From positions 1 to 64,000 of the forward strand of contig QKPN01000014.1 of assembly GCA_003258405.1 (NCBI GenBank): a stretch of DNA of 64,000 nucleotides, read 5' to 3'. The translations under genes were made by a program, and so were the position numbers. This stretch comes from Rhodobacteraceae bacterium DSL-40 (GTDB lineage: Bacteria; Pseudomonadota; Alphaproteobacteria; Rhodobacterales; Rhodobacteraceae). This document shows, one piece after another, positions 36 to 13,910 of the stretch. The notes below the pieces were generated by a model, which did not search any database, was not told the origin of the DNA, and was given only the letters and a program-made list of their open reading frames with translations. The first letter of the stretch is position 1; each line of letters opens with the position of its first letter.

Positions 36-1112
36 ATGTCCGACGCCACGACCCATCTCCTGTTGCCCTACATCCTCGCGGCACAGGCCCAGAAGCATGT
101 CACCCACAACGAGGCGCTGCGGATCCTCGACGGGCTCGTCCAGCTTTCCGTCCTCGACCGGAATCTGACAGCGCCGCCCGGCAGCCCTGCGGATGGCGAC
201 CGCTACATCGTCGGCTCGGGCGCGACGGGCGACTGGGCGGGGTGGGACCTGAATGTGGCGCTGTGGGCGGACGGCGCGTGGCTGCGTCTGCCACCGAGGA
301 CCGGCTGGCGGGCTTGGGTCGAGGATGAAGGACTGCTGCTGGTATACGATGGCGCGGGCTGGATCGGGACCACACCGGACGTGTTGCAGAACCTCGCGCT
401 TCTTGGGATCGGCACGACGGCGGACGCCTCGAACCCGTTCTCGGCCAAGCTCAATGCAGCGCTCTGGACGGCGAAGACCGTGGCCGAGGGCGGCACTGGC
501 GATCTGTTCTACATCATGAACAAGGAGGCCGCGGGCGACGATCTCGGGCTGACCCTGCAGACCGGCTTCGTCACCAAGGCGCTGGTCGGCCTCTTCGGCT
601 CCGACCGCTTCCGGCTGGCGGTCTCGGCCGATGGCAGCACCTTCTTCGACGGGCTCAGCGTCGACAACGCCAACGGCATCGTCGACCAGCCCCGGCTGCC
701 GCGCTTCAAGGCGTACACGAACTACGACAACTACGTGGGCGTCGGAACCTGGACGAAGATCGGCCTGAACAACACCGACTACAACGATCAGGGCGCCTTC
801 GACGCCGCCAACAACCGGTTCGTGGCGCCGGTCGACGGCACCTACCTCTTCGGCGCGACGCTCATGTACAAGGTCAACGCCAGCACGACCGCGCGCATGC
901 GGGGGCGGCTGGTGCTGAACGGAACCACGGAAATCCGGGGCTCCCTCGGCGAAATCTCTGCCACTCACGTCTCGCTCGCCACCGCGATCTGGCTGCAGAC
1001 CATGGTCCCGCTAACCGCTGGCGATACCGTCGAGCTGCAGGGGTATTTCCGGGTCGCGGACGGCTACTTCGCCGCCGATCACACGTCCTTCTGGGGCTGC
1101 AAGATCGGCTAA
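36..1112 (+). CDS. DUF2793 phage tail/receptor-binding protein with C-terminal C1q-like domain
   Basis: A 358-residue protein. The N-terminal ~150 residues match the DUF2793 family, found in tail fibres and spikes of alphaproteobacterial phages and gene transfer agents (start MSDATTHLLLPYILAAQAQK). The C-terminal ~130 residues, from FKAYTNYDNYVGVGTW to the end, have the alternating-strand pattern of a C1q/TNF jelly roll (GTYLFGATLMYKV, HTSFWGCKIG), a trimeric receptor-binding fold. Inferred role: a host-recognition tip. It is the only recognisable virion gene in the window and is separated from the integrase by the restriction-like cassette, which places that cassette in the accessory position of a prophage-like element. 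It is convergent with the GIY-YIG gene, 44 bases away. The domain calls are from remembered family patterns. Confidence 0.75.
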   Translation: MSDATTHLLLPYILAAQAQKHVTHNEALRILDGLVQLSVLDRNLTAPPGSPADGDRYIVGSGATGDWAGWDLNVALWADGAWLRLPPRTGWRAWVEDEGLLLVYDGAGWIGTTPDVLQNLALLGIGTTADASNPFSAKLNAALWTAKTVAEGGTGDLFYIMNKEAAGDDLGLTLQTGFVTKALVGLFGSDRFRLAVSADGSTFFDGLSVDNANGIVDQPRLPRFKAYTNYDNYVGVGTWTKIGLNNTDYNDQGAFDAANNRFVAPVDGTYLFGATLMYKVNASTTARMRGRLVLNGTTEIRGSLGEISATHVSLATAIWLQTMVPLTAGDTVELQGYFRVADGYFAADHTSFWGCKIG

Positions 1113-1156: not shown

Positions 1157-2044
1157 TCAGAATTGGCCTGACGCGTCGCCCGCCGCATCCTGGTTTGCCT
1201 CCCAATCCCCGTAATTGCGTCCGTCCGCGAGCTTCCAGAGGATCCGGCCATTGGCGCTCGCACCAATGACGGCCGCAGCCGCGGCAGAGGCAGACGTGAA
1301 GCTGTAGGCGCTTGTGAAGACAAGAAAATCGCCTTCCTCGCGGAGGACGCCCTTCTCCACAAGGGTGTTCCGGAGCGTGACCGTCCCTCTCGGTATCGTT
1401 CGCGTCGTCCGGACCCTTGCCCTCGAACCTGCCGTGACGACGAAATCCCCGGAGGGCCCGATCTCCATCTCTGCCGCGAAGCCGTCGCCCCGGAAGAAGA
1501 ACCGAGGGCTTTCATGGAGTTCAGCCTTTGGCAGTTCTTGCTCCGCGATCTGCTCCGGCGCACGACCGCGGACTTCTCGGAAGAGATCCCAGCCAAGGGC
1601 TCCAACCAGTGTTTTCGTCTGATCCACGAACTCGTCCATGGCTGCGCGGTCAGGGAGCGGTAGCTTGCCCGCGTCGTCGGACGGCGTGCGCGTGTTGGGC
1701 AGGGTCCAACGGGGATTGCTGACGACCCCCCGGATCAGACAAGCTTCGACATAGCGCGCGTGGCTCTTCGTCAGGTTCTCGTCCTTGCTGATCAGCACGA
1801 CCGTGTCGGTCCAGAAGCCTTTGGCATCGCGACCCGCCTCATTCGAGTTGTGATACGATAATCGCGCTCCGACACCTTCGGACTCGCCAATATATGCAAG
1901 CTGCCGGTCCTGCGCGTCTTCGTCGGCCCCGATCAGGATGTACACGCCTGGCCGTTCGATTTCGGGAAAAGCCTCCCGAACCCGACGAAGCTGGTTGCGC
2001 CGGAAGGCAATCGCCTGGATCGTCGACATCGAGATTTGCGCCAC
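1157..2044 (-). CDS. GIY-YIG nuclease family protein (DUF4357-like C-terminus)
   Basis: A 295-residue protein as bounded by GTG at 2044. GVYILIG (about 33-39) and QLAYIGESEGVGARL (about 48-62) are the GIY and YIG strands of a GIY-YIG nuclease-like domain, with conserved Arg and the later SHARYVEACLI segment. The C-terminus (GRILWKLADGRNYGDWE) resembles DUF4357, often fused to such domains. Last gene of the cassette, 68 bases after res. The frame stays open upstream of GTG to about 2101 and encodes a family-like INIFLLDGDPNGIRVAQIS, so the real start may be the non-standard CTG at 2101, 8 bases after an AGGAG motif; an internal ATG is at 2029. Role inferred: accessory DNA-binding or nicking component. 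Confidence 0.75.
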   Translation of the reverse strand: MAQISMSTIQAIAFRRNQLRRVREAFPEIERPGVYILIGADEDAQDRQLAYIGESEGVGARLSYHNSNEAGRDAKGFWTDTVVLISKDENLTKSHARYVEACLIRGVVSNPRWTLPNTRTPSDDAGKLPLPDRAAMDEFVDQTKTLVGALGWDLFREVRGRAPEQIAEQELPKAELHESPRFFFRGDGFAAEMEIGPSGDFVVTAGSRARVRTTRTIPRGTVTLRNTLVEKGVLREEGDFLVFTSAYSFTSASAAAAAVIGASANGRILWKLADGRNYGDWEANQDAAGDASGQF

Positions 2045-2112
2045 CCGGATACCATTCGGGTCGCCGTCGAGCAGGAAGATATTGATCGACCTCGGTTTCA
2101 GTACTGACGCTC

Positions 2113-4791
2113 CTAGAGTAGCACTCGATAATTTCGAGCATCAGCATCGGTCGATTTAATGATCTGATATTCCATGCCGCTGGCCACTGCTATTTGCTCT
2201 GCAAATTCCTTCTTGGCCTGAACCACCGCATTGTCGACCTGATGATCGCCTTTGACCTCTACCACGACGTACTTTTCACTGCCGTCCGGCTCCTCGCGGA
2301 GAAAAACAAAGTCGGGATAGTAGCTGCGAACCGTGTGTGAGTCAGGGTCGATATACTGAATGAAAAAGTCCGACTGACCGTGCGTAAGCATGCCAGTAAA
2401 ATAGATCTTTTTCACTCGTTTCTCTCTTAGAAGATCCCAGAACAGCGTTCGCTCCGAATTGGAATCGAAGCAGTAGGTGTCGAGGTGGAAGCTCTTGTCG
2501 CGCTCATGATCCTTCACCACTGCGTCCGTGCTGCGGACAATCTTGTCCTTGGCAGCCGTGATCTCGTAATATCCGTTCGCCGGGAGCTTGATGAGTTCGA
2601 CTTCGTGCTCTTCGGTTTTTTCCGACTCATCCAGCTCAAAGATCATCCGGAACAAGCGTGGAATAACCTCGTCGTAGAGCAGCTCGTTGAATTCGTTAGT
2701 GATTTCAACGAGCCTATTGACGCCTTCCGTTGTGGCATCCAGCAGCGACTCGATTTCCAATGGCGATTGGTTGAGATACCGAGCGACTTCTCCCACGAGG
2801 CTGAGGCGTGAGAACACCTGCTTCTCGCGGCGCTCGGTAAGGTCGAACGTCCTGCTGGATGACGCACGGGCGGCCTCACTTGGGGTGAGCCCTTCCTGCT
2901 GCGTCTCCACGAGCCGATATTTCTCGACAAGCTCGCTCCATTTGTCCCGAGCGGACAGCTCGGGGAAGAGCGTCTGTCCAGGCGTGACGGTTTTTTCGCA
3001 CACATTGTATTCCTTGCGCACCCGCACCAGCTTGATCTTCACGGGGGGCTCGATGACCTTGACCTGGACGCGCTCCTTGTCGCTGGCGACGTTCTGCAGC
3101 TCGGCAGCGCTGATCCTGAAGTTCTGCTGCAGTTCGTCGTTCAGGATCTCCATGTTATCGTCGGAGAGAAACACATGCCCGGTGTGCTGGGCTTGGCCGA
3201 TGGCGCGAAGGCAGCGCATGGTGGCCTGAAGCACGAAAACCTTGGATTTGGGCTCGCGGAAGAGGCCGACGCCAAATAGGGACCGGCAGTTCCAGCCCTC
3301 GCGCCCCTTGTTGACGAGCAGAATGAACTGCTTCTCCGAGTCTGGGGTGTCCAGACGGTTGAACTCTCGAATGTCGTCGTTCGAGGTCAACTTCTCGTCG
3401 CCGACGTTGACTAGGATGCGGGATGTCGGAACACCTCTTTTCGAAAGGGCCCGTTCAACCGCCGGGCGGAGCTCCTTCGTTAGTTCCTCGATCGTGGCTG
3501 CGAAGAATGCCAATTTGGGCAGCATGCCCTCAGGCTTCAGATCGCCAGTCTCATCGAGGAATTGCTCGACGGCTATGTCGACGAACTCGTCCGTCCGGGT
3601 GTTTCGGTATCCGTGAAGGACGACCTTCTTTAGGAAGCCCTTGTCGATGGCCTCCTTCAGCCCGTACGCGTAGACCACCTCGGGCAGCACTTCTTTGCCG
3701 ACGTACGGTGTGCCGGTGTAGTTGTAGCAGGCGACGACGCGCGTCCCGGCGCGGTTCAGATTGGCGGCGAGCTGGTCGATGGTGGTGCGGAGGCTCGTGT
3801 CAGTCTCCTTGGCGCCGATCCCCATGTCCTTGGCGAGCGTCTTGCCAAAGGCGTGGTGCGCCTCATCAACGTAGATGCCCAGCTGCTCGAGACGGCACAG
3901 TTTTTCGAACCGCTGGTTAGTGGTCAGCTCGGCCTCTTCTTCGGGCTGATCCCAGGCATAGAGGTCGGCGGCCTCACCATAGACCCCGGGCGCTGTCACC
4001 GTGTCCGGGGTCGCGCCGAACAGCGCGTCCAACGGGGTCTTCTCCTTGTGGCGACGCTTCAGGATGATCTTCTGTGTGTTCGAGACCACGATGTTGAAGC
4101 GCGATCGGTCCAGCGTACTGAGCGAGGTGCCAGCCTCCTCGAGGTAGTGGAAGCGCAGGTGGGTGGTCAGGAAGTTCACGTATTCGGGGGGGACGACCAG
4201 CGCGAGGTCGAAGGACTCGATCTCCTTCAGCGACTGGAGCACGGTCTTGTCCGGGGCGAAGACCAGCGCGTTGTGGCAGTAGCGCTTGTCCTTCTCGAAT
4301 TTGTTTCCCAACAGGAACTCGTAGAAGATGCACGTCGCCATGAGGATTGTCTTGCCGGTTCCCATGGTCAGGGCGAAGATGTAGTTGGGGTAGATGCGGG
4401 AGTTCTTCCGCATTGCCGCGAAGACAGCCTTGTACTGGTCCTGCGTCACCGCATCGAACATCGACCCCTGGCGCGCGTCGCCGCCGATGATTCCGCCTTC
4501 CTGGCGGCCGGCGAAGCGGCCGGTCTTCTCGAACCACGCCTTGAAGATCTCCTCGACCTTCGCGTTGTCCATGAATTCCTTCAGGAAGACATAGATCTCC
4601 AGTGCCTCGTACTGAGGCTGGCGCAGGAAGGCCTTGGGGTTCTTGTCCGGGTTGTTGAAGTCCAGAAACTTGCGGGTTAGCTCCTTGTAATGCGTGCGGA
4701 TCGTGCCGCGGTTGCCGCGGTAGAATTCCCACAGGAACTGGAAGAAGGCGAAGTCCAGCGACGCGCTGATCGCCTTGGTGCGCCTAGCCAT
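2113..4791 (-). CDS. res: Type III-like restriction subunit, DEAD/DEAH helicase with PD-(D/E)XK nuclease (Res)
   Basis: An 892-residue SF2 helicase-nuclease. Walker A is MGTGKT at residues 143-148 and the DEAH box is YVDEAHHAFG near 310. The SF2 C-terminal helicase segment includes NKGREGWNCRSLFGV. The C-terminus has an intact nuclease motif: PD at 826-827 and EVK at 845-847. In Type III systems Res translocates on DNA and cuts when Mod finds unmethylated sites. ATG at 4791 overlaps the mod stop by 8 bases, so the two are translationally coupled. Both ATPase and nuclease motifs are complete, so it is probably active. It differs from the classical pair in being downstream of a second helicase-nuclease and followed by a GIY-YIG gene. 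Confidence 0.85.
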   Translation of the reverse strand: MARRTKAISASLDFAFFQFLWEFYRGNRGTIRTHYKELTRKFLDFNNPDKNPKAFLRQPQYEALEIYVFLKEFMDNAKVEEIFKAWFEKTGRFAGRQEGGIIGGDARQGSMFDAVTQDQYKAVFAAMRKNSRIYPNYIFALTMGTGKTILMATCIFYEFLLGNKFEKDKRYCHNALVFAPDKTVLQSLKEIESFDLALVVPPEYVNFLTTHLRFHYLEEAGTSLSTLDRSRFNIVVSNTQKIILKRRHKEKTPLDALFGATPDTVTAPGVYGEAADLYAWDQPEEEAELTTNQRFEKLCRLEQLGIYVDEAHHAFGKTLAKDMGIGAKETDTSLRTTIDQLAANLNRAGTRVVACYNYTGTPYVGKEVLPEVVYAYGLKEAIDKGFLKKVVLHGYRNTRTDEFVDIAVEQFLDETGDLKPEGMLPKLAFFAATIEELTKELRPAVERALSKRGVPTSRILVNVGDEKLTSNDDIREFNRLDTPDSEKQFILLVNKGREGWNCRSLFGVGLFREPKSKVFVLQATMRCLRAIGQAQHTGHVFLSDDNMEILNDELQQNFRISAAELQNVASDKERVQVKVIEPPVKIKLVRVRKEYNVCEKTVTPGQTLFPELSARDKWSELVEKYRLVETQQEGLTPSEAARASSSRTFDLTERREKQVFSRLSLVGEVARYLNQSPLEIESLLDATTEGVNRLVEITNEFNELLYDEVIPRLFRMIFELDESEKTEEHEVELIKLPANGYYEITAAKDKIVRSTDAVVKDHERDKSFHLDTYCFDSNSERTLFWDLLREKRVKKIYFTGMLTHGQSDFFIQYIDPDSHTVRSYYPDFVFLREEPDGSEKYVVVEVKGDHQVDNAVVQAKKEFAEQIAVASGMEYQIIKSTDADARNYRVLL

Positions 4792-6778
4792 TGGTCACGC
4801 TCCCTTCCCAGGACTCGGAGAGGAGGTCGGTGATCTTCACGCGGATCGTCCCGGCGTCGGCCGGAACCTCGTATCGCCCGGCGACGAGGTCGGTCTTGCC
4901 GGGGATGTCGACCACGGCGGGCTGCAGCACAGCGCCGTCGTAGTTCCAGTCGATGAGGATGCTCTCGACCAGCTCGCGCCAGTCCTCGACCGTCTCCTTC
5001 TGCATCGACAGCTTCTGCAGCAGGTTCATGGGGTAGAAGCGCTCGACGAACAGCTCGCCATCCTTGATGACAACTTTTGCCTCGGAGTCGCGACGGAACT
5101 CGAGGTTGGCCTTGTCGCGCAGGATGTCGACCACCTCTACATCGATCTTGTAGGGTGCCGCGGCCAGCTTGAGCCGGGCGGCGAGGTCGGGCTCATGACC
5201 CATGCAGACGAGCGTGAGCTTCTCCACTGGCCGGTTCGGATGCTCGGCCTGGCGGCGCTCCCACGCCTTGTAGTCGAAGCCGGCGATCAGCTCGTTCAAG
5301 TCCGCGCGGGTGGCGATGCGGTTGACCGGCATGATCTTGACCATGCGGCCGTCCTTCTCTCCGTCGAAGACAGTACTGAGTTCAAGAGGCTGGACCTCTA
5401 AGGCTTCAATCAGAAGTTCTTTTGCCTGAACCGGATTGCGAAAAACATCGTATTGATTGACGTTGCAAACCTCGAAGCCGACAAATTTCGTAGCGCCTGA
5501 TGGCTCAGCTTCGCTGCATATTTCCGAAGCAACTCGCGTAAGTCTTTTTGTAGTGATCTGAATTGCACCAAGATTTATGTCAGCACCAATGAATTTTCGG
5601 CCAAGCTTCATGGATACAGCTTGCGTCGTTCCGGCCCCCATAAAGCAGTCAAACACAATATCGCCAGGATTTGATGATGATTTTATAATTCGGGAAAGAA
5701 GCTCTTCAGGTTTTTGGGTGGGATAGTCCTCTGACTCTAGAGAGTTGCTCCCGAGCGCAACAAAGTCAGTCCAAATTGACTGAAGCTCAACGCCGGGCAT
5801 ATCGTCCGCGAATTGAATGGCATTCGGCCGTCCCATTCCGTCCTTGGCCCACCTGATGCGACCCTTGGCTTCCAGCTCGTCGAGAGCTTTAAGGGGACTT
5901 TTCTTTGCCTCGTCGGACAACATGTGCTCCAAGAAGCTCGGTACCGCCCAGTGCCGACCCTTTCCGATATTGCTTGGATTTAGCCCCTTCCAAGTTGCCC
6001 CTGACTCTCCACTCCGAAGCCCAGGCGCAGTAATTGGGCTTTCGCGAAATAGGCGACCATCCTCGTCTGGCTTGAAGTTGGACGCGAGGTACTCTTTGCT
6101 ATAATCAGTGTACTGTTGATTCCAAACGTATTTAGGGCCCTTTGAGTAGAACAGGATCGTATCATGTATATGATTATATGCCCCACTCCCGGAACGAGCA
6201 GTGGTTCTTCTCCAGACTATTTCGTTCTGAAAACTGCTTGCGCCGAAAACCTCATCGAGAGCCAGCTTAAGGTAGTGAGACTTGCGATAGTCACAATGAA
6301 CATAAATGGAGGCCTCAGGAGACATAAGCTCTCTAAGTAGTATGAATCTTTCAAACATGAATTGAAGATACTCATCATTTGTCCATATATCTCCATATTG
6401 CTTTTCTTCAAAAGCGACGTAGTCGGACGATGCAGATGAGCCCTTAACAGAGATCTTGCGTCGGTAGTCCGCTCCCGAGTCAAAGGGCGGATCAATATAC
6501 ACCAAATTTATCTTCCCACGAAAGTTCTTGAGCATATGGCTCATGACTTGGAGATTGTCTCCCCAAAAGATCTTGTTGCGCCATCCAGAGACCTCGGGGC
6601 CGTGAACTTCCTTAAGTTGCGCCGGAAAGAACTGCGTGGACGTGAACGGCCGCTTCCCGCGCCAGTTCAGCATCGGGTAGCCTTTGATCGGCGCGAACTG
6701 GAACTTCTCCACGCTCTCCAGGCTGGCGGCCTCGGCGCCAAGGTCCATCGCGGTCTGATCGGCTTTCACATCACTCAT
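4784..6778 (-). CDS. mod: Site-specific DNA methyltransferase, Type III Mod-like (beta class)
   Basis: A 664-residue N6-adenine or N4-cytosine DNA methyltransferase. Motif IV is YIDPPF (DPPF at 96-99), ahead of the SAM motif FDCFMGAGTT near 374, the order of the beta class. The long N-terminus and the ~200-residue C-terminal extension fit Type III Mod proteins, which add a recognition domain and a Res-binding part. ATG at 6778 overlaps the helicase stop by 4 bases (ATGA) and its stop overlaps the res ATG by 8 bases. The central part (about 5400-6540) looks more AT-rich than the flanks, perhaps reflecting exchange of the recognition region. Predicted to give self-protection and target recognition. 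The recognised site cannot be read from the sequence. Confidence 0.85.
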   Translation of the reverse strand: MSDVKADQTAMDLGAEAASLESVEKFQFAPIKGYPMLNWRGKRPFTSTQFFPAQLKEVHGPEVSGWRNKIFWGDNLQVMSHMLKNFRGKINLVYIDPPFDSGADYRRKISVKGSSASSDYVAFEEKQYGDIWTNDEYLQFMFERFILLRELMSPEASIYVHCDYRKSHYLKLALDEVFGASSFQNEIVWRRTTARSGSGAYNHIHDTILFYSKGPKYVWNQQYTDYSKEYLASNFKPDEDGRLFRESPITAPGLRSGESGATWKGLNPSNIGKGRHWAVPSFLEHMLSDEAKKSPLKALDELEAKGRIRWAKDGMGRPNAIQFADDMPGVELQSIWTDFVALGSNSLESEDYPTQKPEELLSRIIKSSSNPGDIVFDCFMGAGTTQAVSMKLGRKFIGADINLGAIQITTKRLTRVASEICSEAEPSGATKFVGFEVCNVNQYDVFRNPVQAKELLIEALEVQPLELSTVFDGEKDGRMVKIMPVNRIATRADLNELIAGFDYKAWERRQAEHPNRPVEKLTLVCMGHEPDLAARLKLAAAPYKIDVEVVDILRDKANLEFRRDSEAKVVIKDGELFVERFYPMNLLQKLSMQKETVEDWRELVESILIDWNYDGAVLQPAVVDIPGKTDLVAGRYEVPADAGTIRVKITDLLSESWEGSVTNG

Positions 6779-9687
6779 CGGTCATCTTCCCTGAAATTCC
6801 AGTTCTTCGCGTCGCAATAGGCGCGCATGTCACAGTTCTCGCACAGCCGGTCGGGCCGCGCGGCGATCCGGTAGTCCGCACTTTCGATGCGGTGGACGAT
6901 CTCATCGAAGCGGGCGACCGTCTTGCCGATCGCCCGGTCGTCCTTGGCGAAGCTGACATACGGATTCCCGTCCTGTTCGCCGGTGTAATAGAGGTGCATC
7001 CGGCTGACCTTCTGTCCGGTCCGCTCCTCGATGAGGTGGGCGTAGACCTCGAGCTGGCTCTGGTACTGGCGCAGGCGCTCGCGGTCCTTCTCCATGTCGG
7101 GCTTCTTCTCGGACTTGAAGTCCACCACCTCGACAGTGCCGCCTTCGCCCCGGATCAAGTCGACATTGCCCTTGAGGATGTAGTCGTCCTTGACCAGCGA
7201 GATCTCGACTTCGGTTTCCTTGACCCTGTCCCAGTTGCCGTTCTCGCGCTCGTAGTAGCGCATCACGTGCCGGCGCGCGGCTTCGAGGGTGATGGGCGCG
7301 AGGTACACGCGCTCCTTCTTCGACAGCATCGCGTAGTTGGTGGAGAACCAAGCGTCGATGGCGTCCGGCGTGACCGTGTGTTCCTCGCCCCGCAGGACGG
7401 CCTTGTGGATGTCCTCAATGGTCTGGTGGACGAGGGTGCCGAACAGCATCGGGCTGACGCGGATGGCCGCGAACTCGAGCTCCTTGAAGAAGCGGTATTG
7501 CTCGGCGCAGTTCTCGAAGAGCGTGATGTGGGAGGTGAAGGAGTATTCCCGCTTTAGGTTGATCTCCTTCACCTTCTCGAAGGTGAGCCGGGTCAAGTCG
7601 ACCGTCCGCCAGTCCGGAAGGCCATGGAAGACGTCCTCAAAATATTTCGACGGCGATTTGCCGAGCCCTTTGCCGTACCGTTCCTGCGCGGCCAGGACCA
7701 GCAGGTTCTGCGCTCGCGAGAAGGCGGTGTAGTAGAGGCGCCAGAAGTCGAAGTGCTTGATGCGATCCAGAGGCTCGAACCGCGCCTTCGACAGGTATCC
7801 GCCGTCCTCGAGGATCTCGTCCAGATCGGTGTGCTGCTTGCGTGGCACGGCCTCCAGCGAGCCGCACACGACCACCGGGAACTCAAGCCCTTTGGACTGG
7901 TGGATGGTCAGGAACGAGACGCAGCCCTTCGGCGCGTACTCCGCCTCGTCCTCGTACTCCCCAATGCCGCCGTCCTTGAGGAAGCGGAAGAACTGGTTGA
8001 ACAGGTTCCGCAGGTCGCGCTCGAGATACTCGGGGTTCAAGACCGTGACGTAGTGAAGGTACTCGAACTTGGTGATCAGCTTCGAGAATGTGGCCAGGTT
8101 GCGTGCGGCGCGGCCCTTGTCCACGCCTTGCATCGCCTCCTCGTCGAGGAAGCGGGAGAACAGGGGGAACTGAAGGAGCTGATAGAACAGCCCAGAGAAG
8201 GCGTAGTCGGCGGTTTGGGTCAGGACGGCATGGCGCTTGGCGAGCGGGCGGGCCCACTCAAGCATACGGCTGTTCTCCGGCTTCCGAAGCTCGTCCGTGA
8301 ACGCCTTGAAGCACTGCTGGTCGTAATAATCCCAGATCGCCAATTGGGCGCCTTCGGCCCACTGCCGCACCTTGGGGAACTGCGGAAACAGGAAGATCAG
8401 CGCTCCGATGATCAAGCGGATTTCCTCCCGCTCGAAAAACATGTTGGAGCGCGGCGAATAGACAGGAACCCCGTTGCCTTCGAGAAACCGTGCCAGCTCG
8501 AGCACGCGGTCGTTCTTGACCGAACGGAAGAGGAAGGCGACCTGGTTCCAGTCGGTCAGGCGGCCGGAGTCGCGTAGCGCTGTCAGGAACGTGAGAACCT
8601 CGGCGTGCCAGTTCTCGTTCTCGCCTTTCTCGTCCGATGCGCTCAGACGGACCGCGGTCGGCACGTCGGGGAAGCTGTCCTCACGCGGAAGAATTTGCTT
8701 CGGGAAGCGGAATGCCGTTCCTTGCTCCTCCCAATCCAGCCGTTTCATCCACTCGTTGTAGAAGTCGATGATCCCTGGATGTGAACGATAGTTCACCGTC
8801 AGCCGCACCTGCTTACAGCTGTCTGGCGGGAAGAGCTGTGGGAACTCGAGGATGTTGCGAATCGTGGCCCCTCGAAAGCGGTAGAGGCCTTGGTCATCAT
8901 CCCCGACGACGCAGAGGTTACTCCTGTCGCCGGCGAGAAGCAGCAGGATCTGTTCCTGGATCGTATTGGTGTCCTGATACTCATCGACCATCAGATACGT
9001 GATCTTGTCGCGTAGCTGAGCAAGCACGTCCGGGTGCCGGCGCAGTAGCTGCAGAGCCTCGTACTGGATCCCGGAGAAGTCCAAGCAGTTATTCTCTTCG
9101 AGAAGCTCTTGATACTTTTGAAAACAACGAGCGAGGGCACGCACCTCCGGATCTGGCGCCGTTTTAAGAACATGCGGTTCCAAGGCCTCTTCGCTGACCT
9201 TGTTCAACCACTTCATCAGTTGTTCCGACTGCGCCCACCGGCCGGTCTGGTCATCTCCTATTACTAGCTGTGCATCGGCAAGCTCGCGAAAATCCTTGAT
9301 CTTCTGATAGAGGAAGTACTGCTGATCGAACTGGTCAAAAAGGGTGAAACTGCGCCTCAGGCGGGTGAAATCACGAAATTCTTCCAGTAGCCGTAGGCAG
9401 ATCGAGTGAAATGTGCCGAGGTACATTTCATTCAGGTTGAAGCGGATATCGAGTTCAGCGAGGCGATTTGAAACTCGTGTGGTCAGTTCCCGGGCCGCCT
9501 TGTCAGTGAATGTGACGACCAGGAGGCTCTCTGGCGCAACCTGCTTCTCGGTGATCAGGTGAACAATTCGCTCGACAAGAGTGTAAGTCTTGCCGGAGCC
9601 AGGGCCGGCGATAATGAGAACAGGTCCTTCCGCCGCATTGATCGCAGTCAATTGCTGAGGATTGGCGCTGGAGCGAAGGTCTTTCAT
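6775..9687 (-). CDS. UvrD/Rep-family helicase fused to Fe-S PD-(D/E)XK nuclease
   Basis: A 970-residue SF1A helicase-nuclease. Walker A is GPGSGKT ending at K33-T34. VDEYQDTNT is Walker B, VGDDDQGLYRFRGA motif III and HQSKGLEFP motif V. The C-terminal ~250 residues are a RecB/AddB/Cas4-type nuclease: a GNVDLIR then VVDFKSEKK active site, and an iron-staple cysteine set of one upstream Cys (FENCAEQYRF) with C949, C952 and C958. A DNA-end-processing or unwinding-degradation enzyme similar in architecture to AddA-plus-AddB nuclease parts. It lies between the WYL regulator (4-base overlap) and mod (4-base overlap), so it belongs to the restriction cassette and is not a housekeeping uvrD. Function in the system is inferred. 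Confidence 0.85.
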   Translation of the reverse strand: MKDLRSSANPQQLTAINAAEGPVLIIAGPGSGKTYTLVERIVHLITEKQVAPESLLVVTFTDKAARELTTRVSNRLAELDIRFNLNEMYLGTFHSICLRLLEEFRDFTRLRRSFTLFDQFDQQYFLYQKIKDFRELADAQLVIGDDQTGRWAQSEQLMKWLNKVSEEALEPHVLKTAPDPEVRALARCFQKYQELLEENNCLDFSGIQYEALQLLRRHPDVLAQLRDKITYLMVDEYQDTNTIQEQILLLLAGDRSNLCVVGDDDQGLYRFRGATIRNILEFPQLFPPDSCKQVRLTVNYRSHPGIIDFYNEWMKRLDWEEQGTAFRFPKQILPREDSFPDVPTAVRLSASDEKGENENWHAEVLTFLTALRDSGRLTDWNQVAFLFRSVKNDRVLELARFLEGNGVPVYSPRSNMFFEREEIRLIIGALIFLFPQFPKVRQWAEGAQLAIWDYYDQQCFKAFTDELRKPENSRMLEWARPLAKRHAVLTQTADYAFSGLFYQLLQFPLFSRFLDEEAMQGVDKGRAARNLATFSKLITKFEYLHYVTVLNPEYLERDLRNLFNQFFRFLKDGGIGEYEDEAEYAPKGCVSFLTIHQSKGLEFPVVVCGSLEAVPRKQHTDLDEILEDGGYLSKARFEPLDRIKHFDFWRLYYTAFSRAQNLLVLAAQERYGKGLGKSPSKYFEDVFHGLPDWRTVDLTRLTFEKVKEINLKREYSFTSHITLFENCAEQYRFFKELEFAAIRVSPMLFGTLVHQTIEDIHKAVLRGEEHTVTPDAIDAWFSTNYAMLSKKERVYLAPITLEAARRHVMRYYERENGNWDRVKETEVEISLVKDDYILKGNVDLIRGEGGTVEVVDFKSEKKPDMEKDRERLRQYQSQLEVYAHLIEERTGQKVSRMHLYYTGEQDGNPYVSFAKDDRAIGKTVARFDEIVHRIESADYRIAARPDRLCENCDMRAYCDAKNWNFREDDR

Positions 9688-10568
9688 TGAATCGTTGACC
9701 TCGCGCTATTTCGTCGTTCTCCGATTATGTCACTCGCATTCAGAAGAACGATCTGCTGATCCTGCGGCCTCCTAGCTTCCGGGTCCGTATCGAGCCCAAG
9801 CCGCCTCAGCGCGTAGTAGAGGAGCGCGCGCCGCACCTTGATCTTGGCCTTGCCACCCCGCATCCCGTAGTCACGCGCGATGACCTTCGCCTGCGTCTCT
9901 GAAAGTTCGGGGTGAGGGCCCAATTCAAGAGTGACCTCGGAATGCCAGTCGCGATCATCGTCTGCCGACGTTTCGCTCTCGCATGACCCGCGGATGTCGA
10001 GGATCCGCGAGAGCAGGAAATCCTTGAAGCAGTCATCGATCAGGCAGAACGCCCGGGTGTGCCAGCGGAACCCGTCGAACGCGATGGCGTGAGGCGCGAT
10101 CCAGCGCCAGCGCGGCTCGGGGCTAGACAGGGACTGGTACTTCACCTCGATCGCCTCAGAGCGGCGGATGGCGCCGACGACCGAGCGAAGTGTCACCGGC
10201 TCAACGCCGCGAACCGGCGTCGGGGCGGATGCGTAGGGTGGCAGGTCAGGGATCCAGCAATCTTCGCGCTCCAGCACATCGTCGGCAACGAGGCGGATCT
10301 GGGCGAGGTAGTGCGCGGCGTCCGGCGGGCGGAACTTGCAGTCGAAGTCTGGGCCGCGGACGTAGGTCCGCGCGCTCTTGTCGTAGACCATGTTGTCCGG
10401 TGCCAGCGCGATGTAGCGGTTCAGGTCCGAGGATGCCTGGTTCACCGAGACGCCGAACTGCTGCATCACGTCGATACGATTGACGTGTCCCTCCCAGAAC
10501 AGACGGAACTCGATGAACTCGAGGCGCTGCTCAATCCCCCAGCGAAGTTCGGCCTTGTCCCGGTCCAC
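9684..10568 (-). CDS. WYL-domain transcriptional regulator
   Basis: A 294-residue protein from GTG 10568. The N-terminal ~70 residues form a winged helix-turn-helix (HVNRIDVMQQFGVSVNQASSDLN), followed by a WYL domain containing GFRWHTRAFCLIDDCF and a C-terminal WCX-like extension. WYL proteins sense nucleic-acid or nucleotide ligands and often control defence operons. First gene of the cassette; its TGA overlaps the helicase ATG. GTG 10568 is chosen because GGGAG lies 6 bases upstream; a TTG at 10616 would add 16 Arg-rich residues that look non-coding. An inverted repeat just upstream (10590-10612) could be its own operator. Autoregulation is inference. Confidence 0.8.
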   Translation of the reverse strand: MDRDKAELRWGIEQRLEFIEFRLFWEGHVNRIDVMQQFGVSVNQASSDLNRYIALAPDNMVYDKSARTYVRGPDFDCKFRPPDAAHYLAQIRLVADDVLEREDCWIPDLPPYASAPTPVRGVEPVTLRSVVGAIRRSEAIEVKYQSLSSPEPRWRWIAPHAIAFDGFRWHTRAFCLIDDCFKDFLLSRILDIRGSCESETSADDDRDWHSEVTLELGPHPELSETQAKVIARDYGMRGGKAKIKVRRALLYYALRRLGLDTDPEARRPQDQQIVLLNASDIIGERRNSARSTIQ

Positions 10569-10589: not shown

Positions 10590-10612
10590 GCGCGCACGCG
10601 AACTGTGCGCGC
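10590..10612 (-). promoter_or_regulatory. Inverted repeat upstream of WYL gene, candidate operator
   Basis: GCGCGCAC and GTGCGCGC arms of 8 bases, separated by 7 bases, centred about 33 bases upstream of the GTG start at 10568. A second short inverted repeat (GCCCA-N5-TGGGC, 10611-10625) abuts it. Position and symmetry suit a binding site for the dimeric WYL regulator. No protein-DNA evidence. Confidence 0.35.
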
Positions 10613-10688
10613 CCAATTTCTGGGCTTACTCGGAGGGTAGCCGCGCGGAACTACGTGATCAATCGAAAAGGGACGTGGCGGGGCGCGA

Positions 10689-11843
10689 TTATCCCAAGGA
10701 TTGCCTGAGGTTTTGCGCCACCGCATCGGCCGCCATCCGCACCGGCTCGGCGGCGAGGTGGGCGTAGCGCGCCGTGGTCTGGACCTGCGTATGCCCGAGC
10801 AGCTTGCCGATCATGGGCAGACCCTGACCCGAGGCGACGGCAGTCGACGCGAAGGTGTGGCGCAGGTCGTGGATGCGGACGTCCTTGACGCCGGCGCGGG
10901 CACGAACGCGCTGCCAGAAGGGCTGGAGATCGCTCAGGCGCTTGCCCGGCAGGGTGCCGGCGATGACCCACGGGTTCTCGTCGATGCGCTGAGCGTCGCG
11001 GAGCAGGTCGACAGCAGGCTGGCCGAGATGGACGACCTTGGCGCCAGATTTGGAGTCCGGCAGGCGCAGGACGCGCTCGGCCAGATCGATGTGGGTCCAC
11101 TGCAACGTCATGATCTCGTTCAGGCGGCAGCCGGTCAGGATCAGCAGGCGGGCCGCGAGAATGGCCGAGGGCAGTTCGATCCCTTCCGCCTCCATCTCGC
11201 GCAGCACCTCACCTATCCGGCGCAGTTCCGCCGCGCTGAGGAACCGCTCGCGCTTCTCCTCGGGGTACTTCCGGATGTGCTTTCGCGGGTTGGTGCCGTC
11301 CGGACGCAGGCCCCACATCTCGGTGAGGCTGAACATCTTCGAGATCACTTCGAGGCAGCGGTTCGCCTGATAGGGGATGTGGCGGAGGTCGTGGTGGAAC
11401 TTCGCCACATCGGCACGCGTGATCCCTGTGACGGTCAGTTGCCCGAGCGCGGGCAGGATGAAGCGTTCGAGGTTGCGGCGGTACTCCTTCGCCGTGCTCG
11501 CTTTCACGCGGATCGCGATGTGCTCCTTGTCGAACCGCTCCGCCAGCTCCTTCACCGTGATCGCCCTGCGCCCCGCGTCCCGCTCGGCGGCGGGGTCCGC
11601 ACCATTGCGCGCGGCGGCGACAATGGAGATGGCGCGGTTGCGGGCCTGCTCGCAGGTCAGGACCGTGCTGGGCCCGAGGCTGATCCGCCGGGACCGGCGT
11701 CCGGCGCGATACTGGACCACGTAGCCCTTGCGCCCGCTCGGCAGCACGCGCAGCCCGAAGCCGGGGATCTCGCTGTCCCAGACGAAGTATTCGGCGGAGC
11801 GGGCTTCTGCGGCGTCGACGAGGCGTTTGGTGATCTTGGGCAT
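10689..11843 (-). CDS. int: Tyrosine-type site-specific integrase (P4/DUF4102 type)
   Basis: A 384-residue phage-type integrase. The N-terminal ~90 residues are the arm-DNA-binding domain (DSEIPGFGLRVLPSGRKGYVVQ), followed by a SAM-like core-binding domain and the catalytic domain. Visible catalytic residues: Arg in TGCRLNEI, His and Arg in HDLRHTFAS, His in LGHTQVQTTARYAH and its nucleophile Tyr. All five are present, so it should be active. Integrases of this type often use tRNA 3' ends, and a tRNA-fMet 3' fragment lies 1.8 kb to the right (13688-13732). It probably mobilises the element that carries the cassette. Confidence 0.92.
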   Translation of the reverse strand: MPKITKRLVDAAEARSAEYFVWDSEIPGFGLRVLPSGRKGYVVQYRAGRRSRRISLGPSTVLTCEQARNRAISIVAAARNGADPAAERDAGRRAITVKELAERFDKEHIAIRVKASTAKEYRRNLERFILPALGQLTVTGITRADVAKFHHDLRHIPYQANRCLEVISKMFSLTEMWGLRPDGTNPRKHIRKYPEEKRERFLSAAELRRIGEVLREMEAEGIELPSAILAARLLILTGCRLNEIMTLQWTHIDLAERVLRLPDSKSGAKVVHLGQPAVDLLRDAQRIDENPWVIAGTLPGKRLSDLQPFWQRVRARAGVKDVRIHDLRHTFASTAVASGQGLPMIGKLLGHTQVQTTARYAHLAAEPVRMAADAVAQNLRQSLG

Positions 11844-12062: not shown

Positions 12063-13502
12063 ATGGCTTCAAAGACCACCCTCAATGCGAAGAACCTCGA
12101 AGCGCTGGGCGCCGAGCGCCTGGCGCAACTGCTGATCGAGGTCAGCACCGGCAACGCGGCCGCCAAGCGCAAGCTGCGGCTCGCGCTGGCGGGTGCCCAG
12201 AGCCCGAGGGAGGCCGCGCGGGAGATCACCAAGCGGCTGACAAGCATCGCCCGCGCCCGCAGCTTCATCACCTGGAAGAACCGCAAGGCACTTGTCACGG
12301 ATCTCGAAACCCAGCGGCGCGCCATCGTCGAGCAGATCGCGCCCGCCGATCCGGATGAGGCGCTGGCGCTGATGTGGCGGTTCATGGCGCTCGCCACGCC
12401 GGTGTTCGAGCGCTGCGACGACTCCAGCGGCACCGTCATCGGCATCTTCCACCTGGCCTGCGCCGATCTCGGTCAGCTCGCCGCGAAGGTCCGGCCCGAC
12501 CCGCAGGCGCTCGCCGGCACTGTTCTCGATGCGCTTCAGGACAACGGCTATGGCCAGTATGACGGCCTGATCGGCATCATGGCCCCGGCGCTCGGCGACG
12601 AGGGGCTGGCGGCACTGAAATCGATGGCCGAGGACCTCGGTCGCTCGCCCGTGCCGGCGCCGCCGAAGGATCAATGGAAGGCGGTGGGCTGGGGCCCGGG
12701 TGGCACGACCTACGAGCACGAGATGCGGGCGCGCGAGCGCACGAGCACGGTCGCCGTGGCGCTCAAGGACATCGCCGATGCACAGGGCGACGTCGACGGC
12801 TTCATCGGCCAGTACGATCCGAAGACCCGCAAGGTGCCACAGATCGCAGCCGAGATTGCGCAGCGCCTACTCGCGGCCGGCAGGGCGGGCGAGGCGCTGG
12901 GGTTCCTCGAGCGCGCGGAGCTCGGCGACGGCTTGCGGGTTCCGCTGGCCTGGCAGGATATCCGCCTGCAGACGCTGGAGGCGCTGGGTCGCGGCGAGGA
13001 GGCGCAGGCGTTCCGGTGGGACTGCTTCGAACGCACGCTCTCCGACAGCTACCTGCGGGCCTATCTCAAGCGGCTGCCCGACTTCGACGACATCGAGGCC
13101 GAAGAGCGGGCGATGGCGCACGCCACGGCCTATCCGAGCCTTCTTCACGCCCTGCAGTTCTTCCTCGACTGGCCGGCGCTGGATCGCGCTGCCGACGTCA
13201 TGATTGCCCGGCACGACGAGATCGACGGTGACCATTACGAGTATCTCGCCCCCGCGGCGGAGGCCCTGTCAGAGCGTCATCCACTGGCCGCGACTCTGGT
13301 GCTCCGCGCGATGATCGACTTCACGCTCACTCGATCGCGGGCGAAGCGGTATCGCTATGCCGCCGAGCACCTTGTCCCCTGCGCCCGGCTCGCGCGGGAC
13401 ATCCCGGACTTCGGCGCGTTCGAGACGCACGATGCCTATGTCGCCCGGCTGAAGGAGGAGCACGGCAGGAAGTTCGGCTTCTGGTCGCTCACCGCCGCCT
13501 GA
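12063..13502 (+). CDS. DUF6880-like protein of unknown function
   Basis: A 479-residue soluble, mostly helical protein without transmembrane segments. It resembles the DUF6880 family in its start (LNAKNLEALGAERLAQLLIE) and in TPR-like helical pairs through the middle (AAGRAGEALGFLERAEL). No catalytic motif was seen. It is transcribed away from the integrase and lies alone between integrase and attachment site, the usual place for cargo genes on such elements. The start is ATG 12063. Family assignment is from memory of related sequences and moderately certain; function is unknown. Confidence 0.7.
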   Translation: MASKTTLNAKNLEALGAERLAQLLIEVSTGNAAAKRKLRLALAGAQSPREAAREITKRLTSIARARSFITWKNRKALVTDLETQRRAIVEQIAPADPDEALALMWRFMALATPVFERCDDSSGTVIGIFHLACADLGQLAAKVRPDPQALAGTVLDALQDNGYGQYDGLIGIMAPALGDEGLAALKSMAEDLGRSPVPAPPKDQWKAVGWGPGGTTYEHEMRARERTSTVAVALKDIADAQGDVDGFIGQYDPKTRKVPQIAAEIAQRLLAAGRAGEALGFLERAELGDGLRVPLAWQDIRLQTLEALGRGEEAQAFRWDCFERTLSDSYLRAYLKRLPDFDDIEAEERAMAHATAYPSLLHALQFFLDWPALDRAADVMIARHDEIDGDHYEYLAPAAEALSERHPLAATLVLRAMIDFTLTRSRAKRYRYAAEHLVPCARLARDIPDFGAFETHDAYVARLKEEHGRKFGFWSLTAA

Positions 13503-13687
13503 TGGTCGTGCTACCGGAAAATCAGGTCGCGGCCCCTTGGAAGCATTGTGGAAGCACGAGGCCGAAAAACCCTGCGCAATCCCGACAGTTGGTGCGAAGC
13601 GGGGCCTTGCCTGCGGGATCGCCAAGTGGCGGAAATTGCGCAAGAACTCGCGGTTCCGAGTGATTGTTCATGGTTCGTTCGGCACGA

Positions 13688-13732
13688 CTCATAACCTGAA
13701 GGCCGCAGGTTCAAATCCTGCCCCCGCAACCA
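13688..13732 (+). other. 3' fragment of tRNA-fMet, attachment site of the integrated element
   Basis: Forty-five bases match the 3' half of an alphaproteobacterial initiator tRNA: anticodon loop CTCATAA, anticodon-stem 3' arm CCTGA, T-loop GTTCAAATC, acceptor CCCCGC and CCA at 13730-13732. The 5' half is absent: bases before 13688 do not form D-arm or acceptor partners. This is the duplicated end left when an element integrates into a tRNA gene, with the intact tRNA at the other end, beyond the left edge. The native terminator follows it. Confidence 0.75.
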
Positions 13733-13910
13733 GATATACTGGCAAGAACCCCGCCCCTCCGGCGGGGTTTTGTCGTTTCAACGGAAAGCGGAAGAATTCC
13801 AGCGCGATCGCCGCATACCTCGACCTCCTCCAGGAGACCGTTCTGCGCCTCCGGGTTGGCCGTAAGCACCACCTTCTCGATCAGGCCAGTTGAAATCAGG
13901 CTTGCTTGAG
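13711..13910 (-). pseudogene. Possible serine-recombinase C-terminal remnant
   Basis: A minus-strand open frame encodes LISTGLIEKVVLTANPEA then GLLEEVEVCGDRAGILPL. This resembles the last strands of large serine recombinases of alphaproteobacteria (GLIERVVLTP... and GDLA.IL patterns). There is no start codon and no catalytic domain. The frame runs over the tRNA fragment to a stop at 13711. The similarity is short, so this is tentative. A clearer remnant of the same kind lies at 16446-16778. Confidence 0.3.
13747..13771 (+). terminator. Rho-independent terminator of the tRNA-fMet locus
   Basis: AACCCCGCC and GGCGGGGTT form a 9-base stem with a 5-base loop, followed by two more T residues and TG. 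It starts 15 bases after the CCA of the tRNA fragment, so it is probably the original tRNA terminator left on the chromosome side of the junction. Confidence 0.7.

Follow-up and report, generated by a model that had tools for sequence, protein, structure and literature searches.

The five minus-strand genes considered here lie at positions 1157-10568 of a 64,000-nucleotide stretch of Rhodobacteraceae bacterium DSL-40 (GCA_003258405.1, contig QKPN01000014.1, positions 1 to 64,000; the window hereafter) and encode, from the operon's first gene onward, a WYL regulator, a UvrD helicase fused to a nuclease, the Mod and Res proteins of a Type III-like pair, and a GIY-YIG protein. A sequence-only reading had proposed them as a candidate composite defense system. 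Open reading frame (ORF) and domain analysis bore out their places and the overlaps of 4, 4 and 8 bp (Table 1), while comparison with other genomes spoke against a single system. The locus is probably the defense-cassette socket of a prophage-like integrative island, now filled with a Type III-like restriction operon, with operons being exchanged behind the WYL gene, and the five genes are best read as two units, cargo and socket, rather than one composite. The socket would consist, on one side, of an attachment-site-like tRNA end, DUF6880, an integrase, a promoter/operator and the CapW/BrxR-type WYL gene and, on the other, of an optional GIY-YIG gene and a DUF2793 gene adjoining phage tail genes.

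That whole defense operons have been exchanged at this slot is shown by comparison with related loci. A search of 149 genomes of the family found WYL relatives (E<=1e-80) in 19 and integrase relatives (E<=1e-150) in 7; 15 of the 19 WYL places other than the window's were fetched, and in none of these 15 does UvrD-Mod-Res stand behind WYL. Over their visible stretch, twelve have other genes there; in the remaining three (L144, L145 and L147) the sequence breaks off at a contig end 1.3, 0.4 and 1.6 kb past WYL. The gene that follows WYL in L147 matches UvrD weakly (34% over 87 residues) and is distinct from the core UvrD. L136, from the same genus, shares with the window, besides DUF6880 (Table 1), the integrase (97% identity), WYL (93%), GIY-YIG (98%) and DUF2793 (94%), and its cargo is an SNF2 helicase, DUF4391, a Type III Mod and a Type III Res, the same kind as in L137 and L138. 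The Type III Res of L136 (L136:11733-13954) lacks about residues 39-332 relative to that of L138. L143 has DUF6880, the integrase (97%), WYL (96%) and part of DUF2793 around Mza, a cargo also present in L148; L146 has WYL and DUF2793 around Hma-like genes; the cargo is BREX-3 in L151, a helicase with an N6 methylase in L155, and unclassified in L149, L150, L152 and L153 (the names Mza, Hma and BREX come from PADLOC or from the records and were extended to L148, L151 and L155 by tblastn). The window, L136 and L143 thus show three cargos between the same flanking genes; L138, L146 and L153 have only WYL and DUF2793 in common with the window's socket. On the far side of the cargo, homology to the window resumes at 2098-2100 in L136-L138, which have GIY-YIG, and at 1110 in L143, L146 and L153, which do not.

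The inner joint of the exchange sits, as the same comparison shows, in conserved codons near the 3' end of the WYL gene, about 55 bp before its stop. Homology to the window in blastn stops at 9737-9747 in 11 of 12 loci with other cargo and at 9780 in L146, and the WYL tails that follow the residues QQIVLLN differ by cargo. In a test on 19 of 23 aligned loci (L003 was omitted as a near-duplicate of L002, and L144, L145 and L147 for their contig ends), the first nine tail residues had an identity of 0.58 in 11 same-cargo pairs versus 0.22 in 160 others, and none of 20000 label shuffles gave so large a difference, whereas the WYL backbone was 0.80 versus 0.79 identical, with 27% of shuffles as large. 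Comparing the tail and the backbone of a regulator across cargos is a simple test for such slots.

A trace of the outer joint may be preserved at the GIY-YIG start. The frame is open up to a CTG at 2101, 11 bp past the Res stop, is preceded by AGGAG and reads LKPRSINIFLLDGDPNGIR; the matching codon is ATG in L136, L137 and L140 and TTG in L141, so that, from sequence, the gene probably starts at this CTG rather than at GTG 2044. In L136 and L137 the ATG and the stop of the preceding Res gene have the A in common; as the window base at this place comes from the other cargo, the CTG resembles a scar left by the joint.

Several features point to the island nature of the surroundings. The integrase directly precedes WYL in 7 of 8 places of the family sample, and homology to the window stops at 13732, the CCA end of a partial tRNA, for L002, L147 and L149, at 13735-13736 for L143 and L144, and reaches 13778 for L136 and L003. 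No whole tRNA was found in the window, and no direct repeat at both island ends in L002 or the window with 16- and 14-base seeds. L002 runs past DUF2793 into tail and lysis genes, the gene after DUF2793 being a tail protein, so the probable setting of the slot is a prophage, with the integrase on one flank and tail genes on the other. In L199 (G450:C31), DUF6880 (69%) and an integrase (80%) are followed by weak helicase and methylase matches.

Table 1. Features of the locus in window coordinates.
Feature	Position	Strand	Basis or remark
DUF2793 gene	36..1112	+	PF10983; distal slot edge
GIY-YIG + DUF4357 protein (PADLOC PDC-S14)	1157..2101	-	DUF4357 PF14267; probable CTG start at 2101, GTG 2044 internal
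Res, superfamily 2 (SF2) ATPase + C-terminal TnsA-like PD-(D/E)XK nuclease	2113..4791	-	ResIII PF04851, PF08722
Mod, beta-class N6/N4 methyltransferase, DPPF	4784..6778	-	N6_N4_Mtase PF01555
Mod low-GC segment (0.48), unlike close relatives	5480..6476	-	read as exchanged target-recognition region
UvrD helicase fused to PDDEXK_1/Cas4-like nuclease	6775..9687	-	PF00580 + PF12705; four invariant Cys
CapW/BrxR-family WYL regulator, operon's first gene	9684..10568	-	WYL PF13280; phmmer to CapW, BrxR
Cargo-specific WYL 3' end (exchange joint)	9684..9739	-	blastn breaks; tail test
Operator-like dyad GCGCGCAC-N7-GTGCGCGC	10590..10612	.	counterparts upstream of WYL in other operons
Operator-like dyad GCCCA-N5-TGGGC	10611..10625	.	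comparison across operons
Tyrosine integrase	10689..11843	-	PF00589; phrog_1
DUF6880 gene, conserved-socket part	12063..13502	+	PF21810; 96% identical in L136 and L143
tRNA 3' half ending CCA	13687..13732	+	probable attachment-site end of island, read by eye

The cargo of the window is a recurrent set of three genes. When genome contigs were scanned with Res, 160 relatives came up, the best 80 of which were kept, a choice that favors window-like loci; 66 of these 80 show at least 5.2 kb upstream of Res, and the UvrD counts refer to them. UvrD and Mod are both present in 62 of the 66, in 58 of them tight, collinear and on one strand, and in four with gaps of 1.3-4.8 kb; recurrence of the order UvrD-Mod-Res in 58 of 66 loci makes it more than a chance arrangement, and the earlier assignment of the UvrD-nuclease to the Mod-Res pair holds. 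Among 385 genomes of the class, UvrD (E<=1e-100) and Res (E<=1e-50) occur in the same two, that of the window and G201, in which about 2 kb separate them; UvrD is present in each of the 14 plasmid records that hold at least 80% of Res; and a scan of IMG/VR that started from UvrD returned 7 loci, with Res in all 7 and Mod in 6 (L099 is the same contig as L002, and in L102 UvrD and Res are only partial). Pairwise UvrD and Res distances correlate with r 0.982 over 71 aligned sets including the window. In L004 the same cargo (Res and UvrD 93% identical each) has other surroundings, with no match to WYL or GIY-YIG. From such sequence data we infer that UvrD, Mod and Res work as a restriction unit. 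In the gut phage record L089 (PV036426.1:298-8451), UvrD, a 246-residue unknown protein, a methyltransferase and Res follow in this order; L154 (G503:C10) holds a decayed core, with the UvrD N-terminus and the Res C-terminus about 11 kb apart and other genes between.

The type assignment of Mod and Res as Type III-like was confirmed by their domains, the Mod motif and their best fold matches. Foldseek found EcoP15I Mod (4zcf_A, E 3.5e-23, TM-score 0.35-0.38 over the whole chain) as the best PDB match of the Mod model (predicted local distance difference test, pLDDT, 72) and EcoP15I Res (4zcf_C, E 3.5e-11, TM-score 0.29-0.40, weak over the whole length) as that of the Res model (pLDDT 76); given the low TM-scores, the matches support the fold class and not a close match. 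A sequence search of the PDB with Res gave zero matches. The residues expected to matter are conserved in the alignments: UvrD C727, C949, C952 and C958 as well as D843, D856 and K858 in 71 of 71 rows, T34 in 62 of 64; the motor and nuclease motif residues of Res unchanged in every row that covers them (70-71); and, of the 71 Mod rows, 63 with DPPF and 6 with DPPY. Going by this homology and these invariant residues, Mod would methylate host sites set by its exchangeable recognition region, an EcoP15I-like Mod-Res assembly would find unmethylated sites, to be cut by the PD-(D/E)XK domain of Res, and the UvrD-Cas4-type helicase-nuclease, probably with an iron-sulfur cluster, would unwind and degrade the cut invader from its ends.

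Unlike UvrD, the recognition region of Mod does not follow Res. Distances over Mod residues 200-330 are uncorrelated with those of Res (r 0.012, 71 aligned sets), and, over 2346 pairs, the median identity of residues 130-330 is 0.39-0.42 whichever band of Res identity between 0.3 and 0.99 is taken, with individual pairs spanning 0.26 to 1.00. Since this region varies independently of Res, specificity appears to be exchanged while the machinery is kept. The edges of the low-GC patch in the window's Mod are sharp against L002, L003 and L004 with megablast; at higher search sensitivity they lose definition, shifting to 5658 for L002 and to 6211 for L003. In the metagenome bins L067 and L070, of two phyla, Res and UvrD are 99% and the Mod recognition region 42% identical, possibly by transfer or by a binning error.

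A different role of UvrD-Cas4, that of a host-side safeguard which repairs or clears Mod-Res breaks on the host chromosome rather than of an attack nuclease, is unlikely in our judgment, yet it has the RecB/AddB-like architecture and the invariant cysteines and nuclease residues on its side, as well as the suggestion, in the portion of Hudaiberdiev et al. (PMC5704561) at hand, of an ancillary role in site-specific unwinding and cleavage with a nuclease function analogous to RecB/AddB. Its strict form is difficult to reconcile with L003, which keeps Mod and Res and has lost most of UvrD. There (L003:7901-8074) UvrD has shrunk, without loss of frame, to 57 residues from its two ends, with WYL, Mod and Res open, a natural uvrD deletion unless it is an assembly error; GIY-YIG is also broken in this locus. 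A relative of UvrD furthermore occurs with another methyltransferase/helicase pair, which again fits a safeguard of Mod-Res poorly: the one Priestia plasmid opened (L088:8983-18079) has it with a 985-residue N6_N4 methyltransferase and a 1069-residue ResIII helicase. Plasmid-borne UvrD without this Res was seen in Annamia, Nostoc, Geminocystis (the last two broken), two Priestia, Peribacillus and, as a distant relative, Fusobacterium.

Turning to the regulator, its place as operon head, as proposed in the sequence-only reading, was borne out. The gene starts with GTG at 10568 (a longer TTG start would give 10616), and phmmer relates its product to CapW (9c5g, E 2.1e-64, residues 9-282 of 294, spanning the HTH, WYL and C-terminal domains) and to BrxR (7t8k, E 1.3e-42). 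Upstream of it, dyads of the forms GCCCA-N5-TGGGC and GCGCAY-N7-RTGCGC are common to several operons; 25 of 40 columns of the dyad block are invariant in 5 sequences versus 9 of 98 further upstream, and the arms of the second dyad covary (AC/GT in the window, AT/AT in L091 and L093). In L002, a search with 8-nt arms gave no dyad and shorter arms found it; the more distant WYL of L014 is without the block. Promoter and terminator consensus scans were within one standard deviation of shuffles. By analogy with the part of the BrxR work at hand (PMC9122601), the WYL protein may bind at these dyads as putative operators. Among plasmids, 681 records carry a WYL relative, seven at 78-84% identity; the five opened head BREX-3 (L091, L092), helicase with N6 methylase (L093, L095) and methyltransferase with ResIII (L094) operons.

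These near twins also bear on the idea that WYL is a lysogeny or island gene merely adjoining the cargo and without control of it. Its membership in the conserved island side with integrase and DUF6880 would suit such a bystander; however, WYL shares bases with the first cargo gene, has its nearest matches in CapW and BrxR, and in its plasmid near twins heads BREX-3 and methyltransferase-helicase operons with similar dyads and no integrase match seen beside them, so that we regard a bystander role as decidedly improbable.

Under the preferred reading of a socket with exchanged operons, the swap would proceed by recombination with its inner joint in the WYL 3' codons, and the incoming operon would come under the same WYL repressor. 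Whether the arrangement amounts to a general regulator socket, in which fixed promoter, dyad operator and WYL gene receive any defense operon (restriction, BREX-3, Mza or Hma-like), each arriving coupled and repressed and with a cargo-borne tail that might tune the repressor, seems to us evenly balanced. Such tuning may run, for instance, via a C-terminal strap over the WYL domain, by analogy with the strap suggested as a lid in BrxR (PMC9122601, portion at hand). If true, exchange behind a resident repressor would explain the safe uptake of unrelated systems and why one WYL family stands ahead of many kinds of defense; bacteria could then exchange whole defense systems while keeping the same control switch. 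Defense genes are costly and can be toxic on first entry into a cell.

GIY-YIG is a poor fit for a fixed part of the core. The window's protein scores just below the cut-off for PF01541 (20.7 versus 22.6 bits). Among core loci, it occurs in 4 of 72 with visible downstream DNA, two of them on the opposite strand, and WYL in 2 of 57 adjacent ones with visible upstream DNA. A Pfam scan of flanking ORFs (at most two per side and locus, below 900 residues, four listed upstream ORFs omitted) gave WYL in 2 of 76 upstream and DUF4357 in 3 of 109 downstream. GIY-YIG was found in 22 of the 149 family genomes, 21 of them without this Res, and Res in two, the window's own and, as a fragment, G503, which is outside the 22. 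As a fixed partner GIY-YIG was also rejected on plasmids, where 45 records carry it, 40 of them listed, and these 40 do not overlap with the 26 plasmid records that have Res; on two plasmids it lies inside Type I operons, and it has other settings elsewhere. Among its 7 closest family places (61-98% identity), it stands behind Type III cargo with WYL in L136-L138 and adjoins genes matching none of the query proteins in L139-L142. GIY-YIG would accordingly be a roaming accessory of restriction operons, and adjacency in such a slot, be it of WYL or GIY-YIG, is no proof of a composite system. One obligate five-gene composite, with control by WYL, restriction by Mod-Res, degradation by UvrD and an extra cut by GIY-YIG, is very unlikely in the face of these counts and of the other genes behind WYL in family relatives, even though its genes overlap on one strand, L002 has the same five (four at 93-99% identity, Mod at 66%), and GIY-YIG also comes last, after another kind of Type III Res, in L136-L138 and is found within Type I operons.

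A number of observations weigh against our reading of the locus. As to the joint, three same-cargo pairs have a tail identity of only 0.22, L136 and L143, of different cargo, reach 0.67, and the cargo labels in the test were assigned by the analyst. As to the socket, integrase-WYL and DUF2793 lie on one stretch in only four loci (window, L002, L136, L143) with three cargos, and the three of 15 WYL loci too short to show their cargo lower our confidence. The G450 integrase has no WYL match on its 20-kb stretch. The L002 copy of DUF2793 has no PHROG match itself, and there are several such genes per genome (4 matches, 2 at full length, in the window's own). Calling the element a prophage depends on profile matches to tail, lysis and integrase genes in L002 and the window and on the presence of the L002 contig in IMG/VR. 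L092 has an imperfect first dyad, and L094 an imperfect second one. Finally, UvrD is absent in 4 of the 66 Res loci (L003, L048, L049, L076), and with its being mostly lost in L003 this suggests that UvrD may not be essential.

Compared with known systems, the UvrD-Mod-Res core belongs to a neighborhood published in 2017 without a name (Hudaiberdiev et al., PMC5704561), and the notion that it was previously undescribed was dropped. The sequence-only reading pointed to no named system with this exact set; UvrD-Cas4 with Mod and Res was already in print, without a name. In the portion of that paper at hand, as in the window, UvrD fused to a pfam12705 Cas4-like nuclease adjoins Type III mod and res, and several loci also have WYL or HTH genes; cargo exchange behind a fixed WYL is not described there, and the words GIY-YIG, DUF3883, Sacsin and hotspot are absent from its main text. 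In the PADLOC comparison proposed earlier, PDC-S14 matches the GIY-YIG protein and Type II/III methyltransferase models match Mod, but Res has no match among PADLOC models. With Type III restriction-modification of the EcoP15I type, the window shares an SF2 Res with C-terminal nuclease and a beta-class Mod, differing by the nearly constant third, helicase-nuclease gene and a Res without PDB sequence match. Type III N4-methylcytosine systems (PMC8259958, portion at hand) likewise have an extra motor gene 5' of mod and resemble the SNF2-Mod-Res cargo of L136-L138; there the extra gene is an SF2 helicase-like ATPase without nuclease motif, whereas in the window it is a superfamily 1 UvrD with nuclease.

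The window's WYL resembles CapW/BrxR as described in the part of PMC9122601 at hand in family, place ahead of defense genes, upstream inverted repeats and the several defense types served; it differs in that its own 3' end is the exchange joint, and the words recombination, hotspot and cassette are absent from the main text of that paper. Prophage antiviral hotspots are already known and, as in our slot, hold variable defense genes between conserved phage genes near the integrase (PMC9122126); one Bacillus hotspot adjoins a transcriptional regulator, which is not described, in the portion at hand, as holding a joint or controlling the cargo. The slot is a variant of these hotspots whose distinctive feature is the joint inside a regulator gene, for which no precedent was found in searches of open-licence papers. 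Two further papers, on RptR (PMC12255303) and the Listeria ICR (PMC10059834), concern, in the parts at hand, something different from this locus.

Elsewhere the core keeps other company. Its commonest partner, in 24 of the 58 tight loci (e.g., L005:1557-4880), is a protein of about 1100 residues of the Sacsin (GHKL-type)/NOV_C kind with PADLOC matches to TmtA, the Tiamat protein; the gene is divergent and upstream in 22 of the 24. An HTH_17 gene lies beside UvrD in 15 of the 58 tight loci, 14 of which also have the Sacsin/NOV_C gene; neither gave a match in the window's island (first 20 kb). After Res, a DUF488 gene stands opposite a PDC-M19B gene in L011, L016, L021, L024 and L059.

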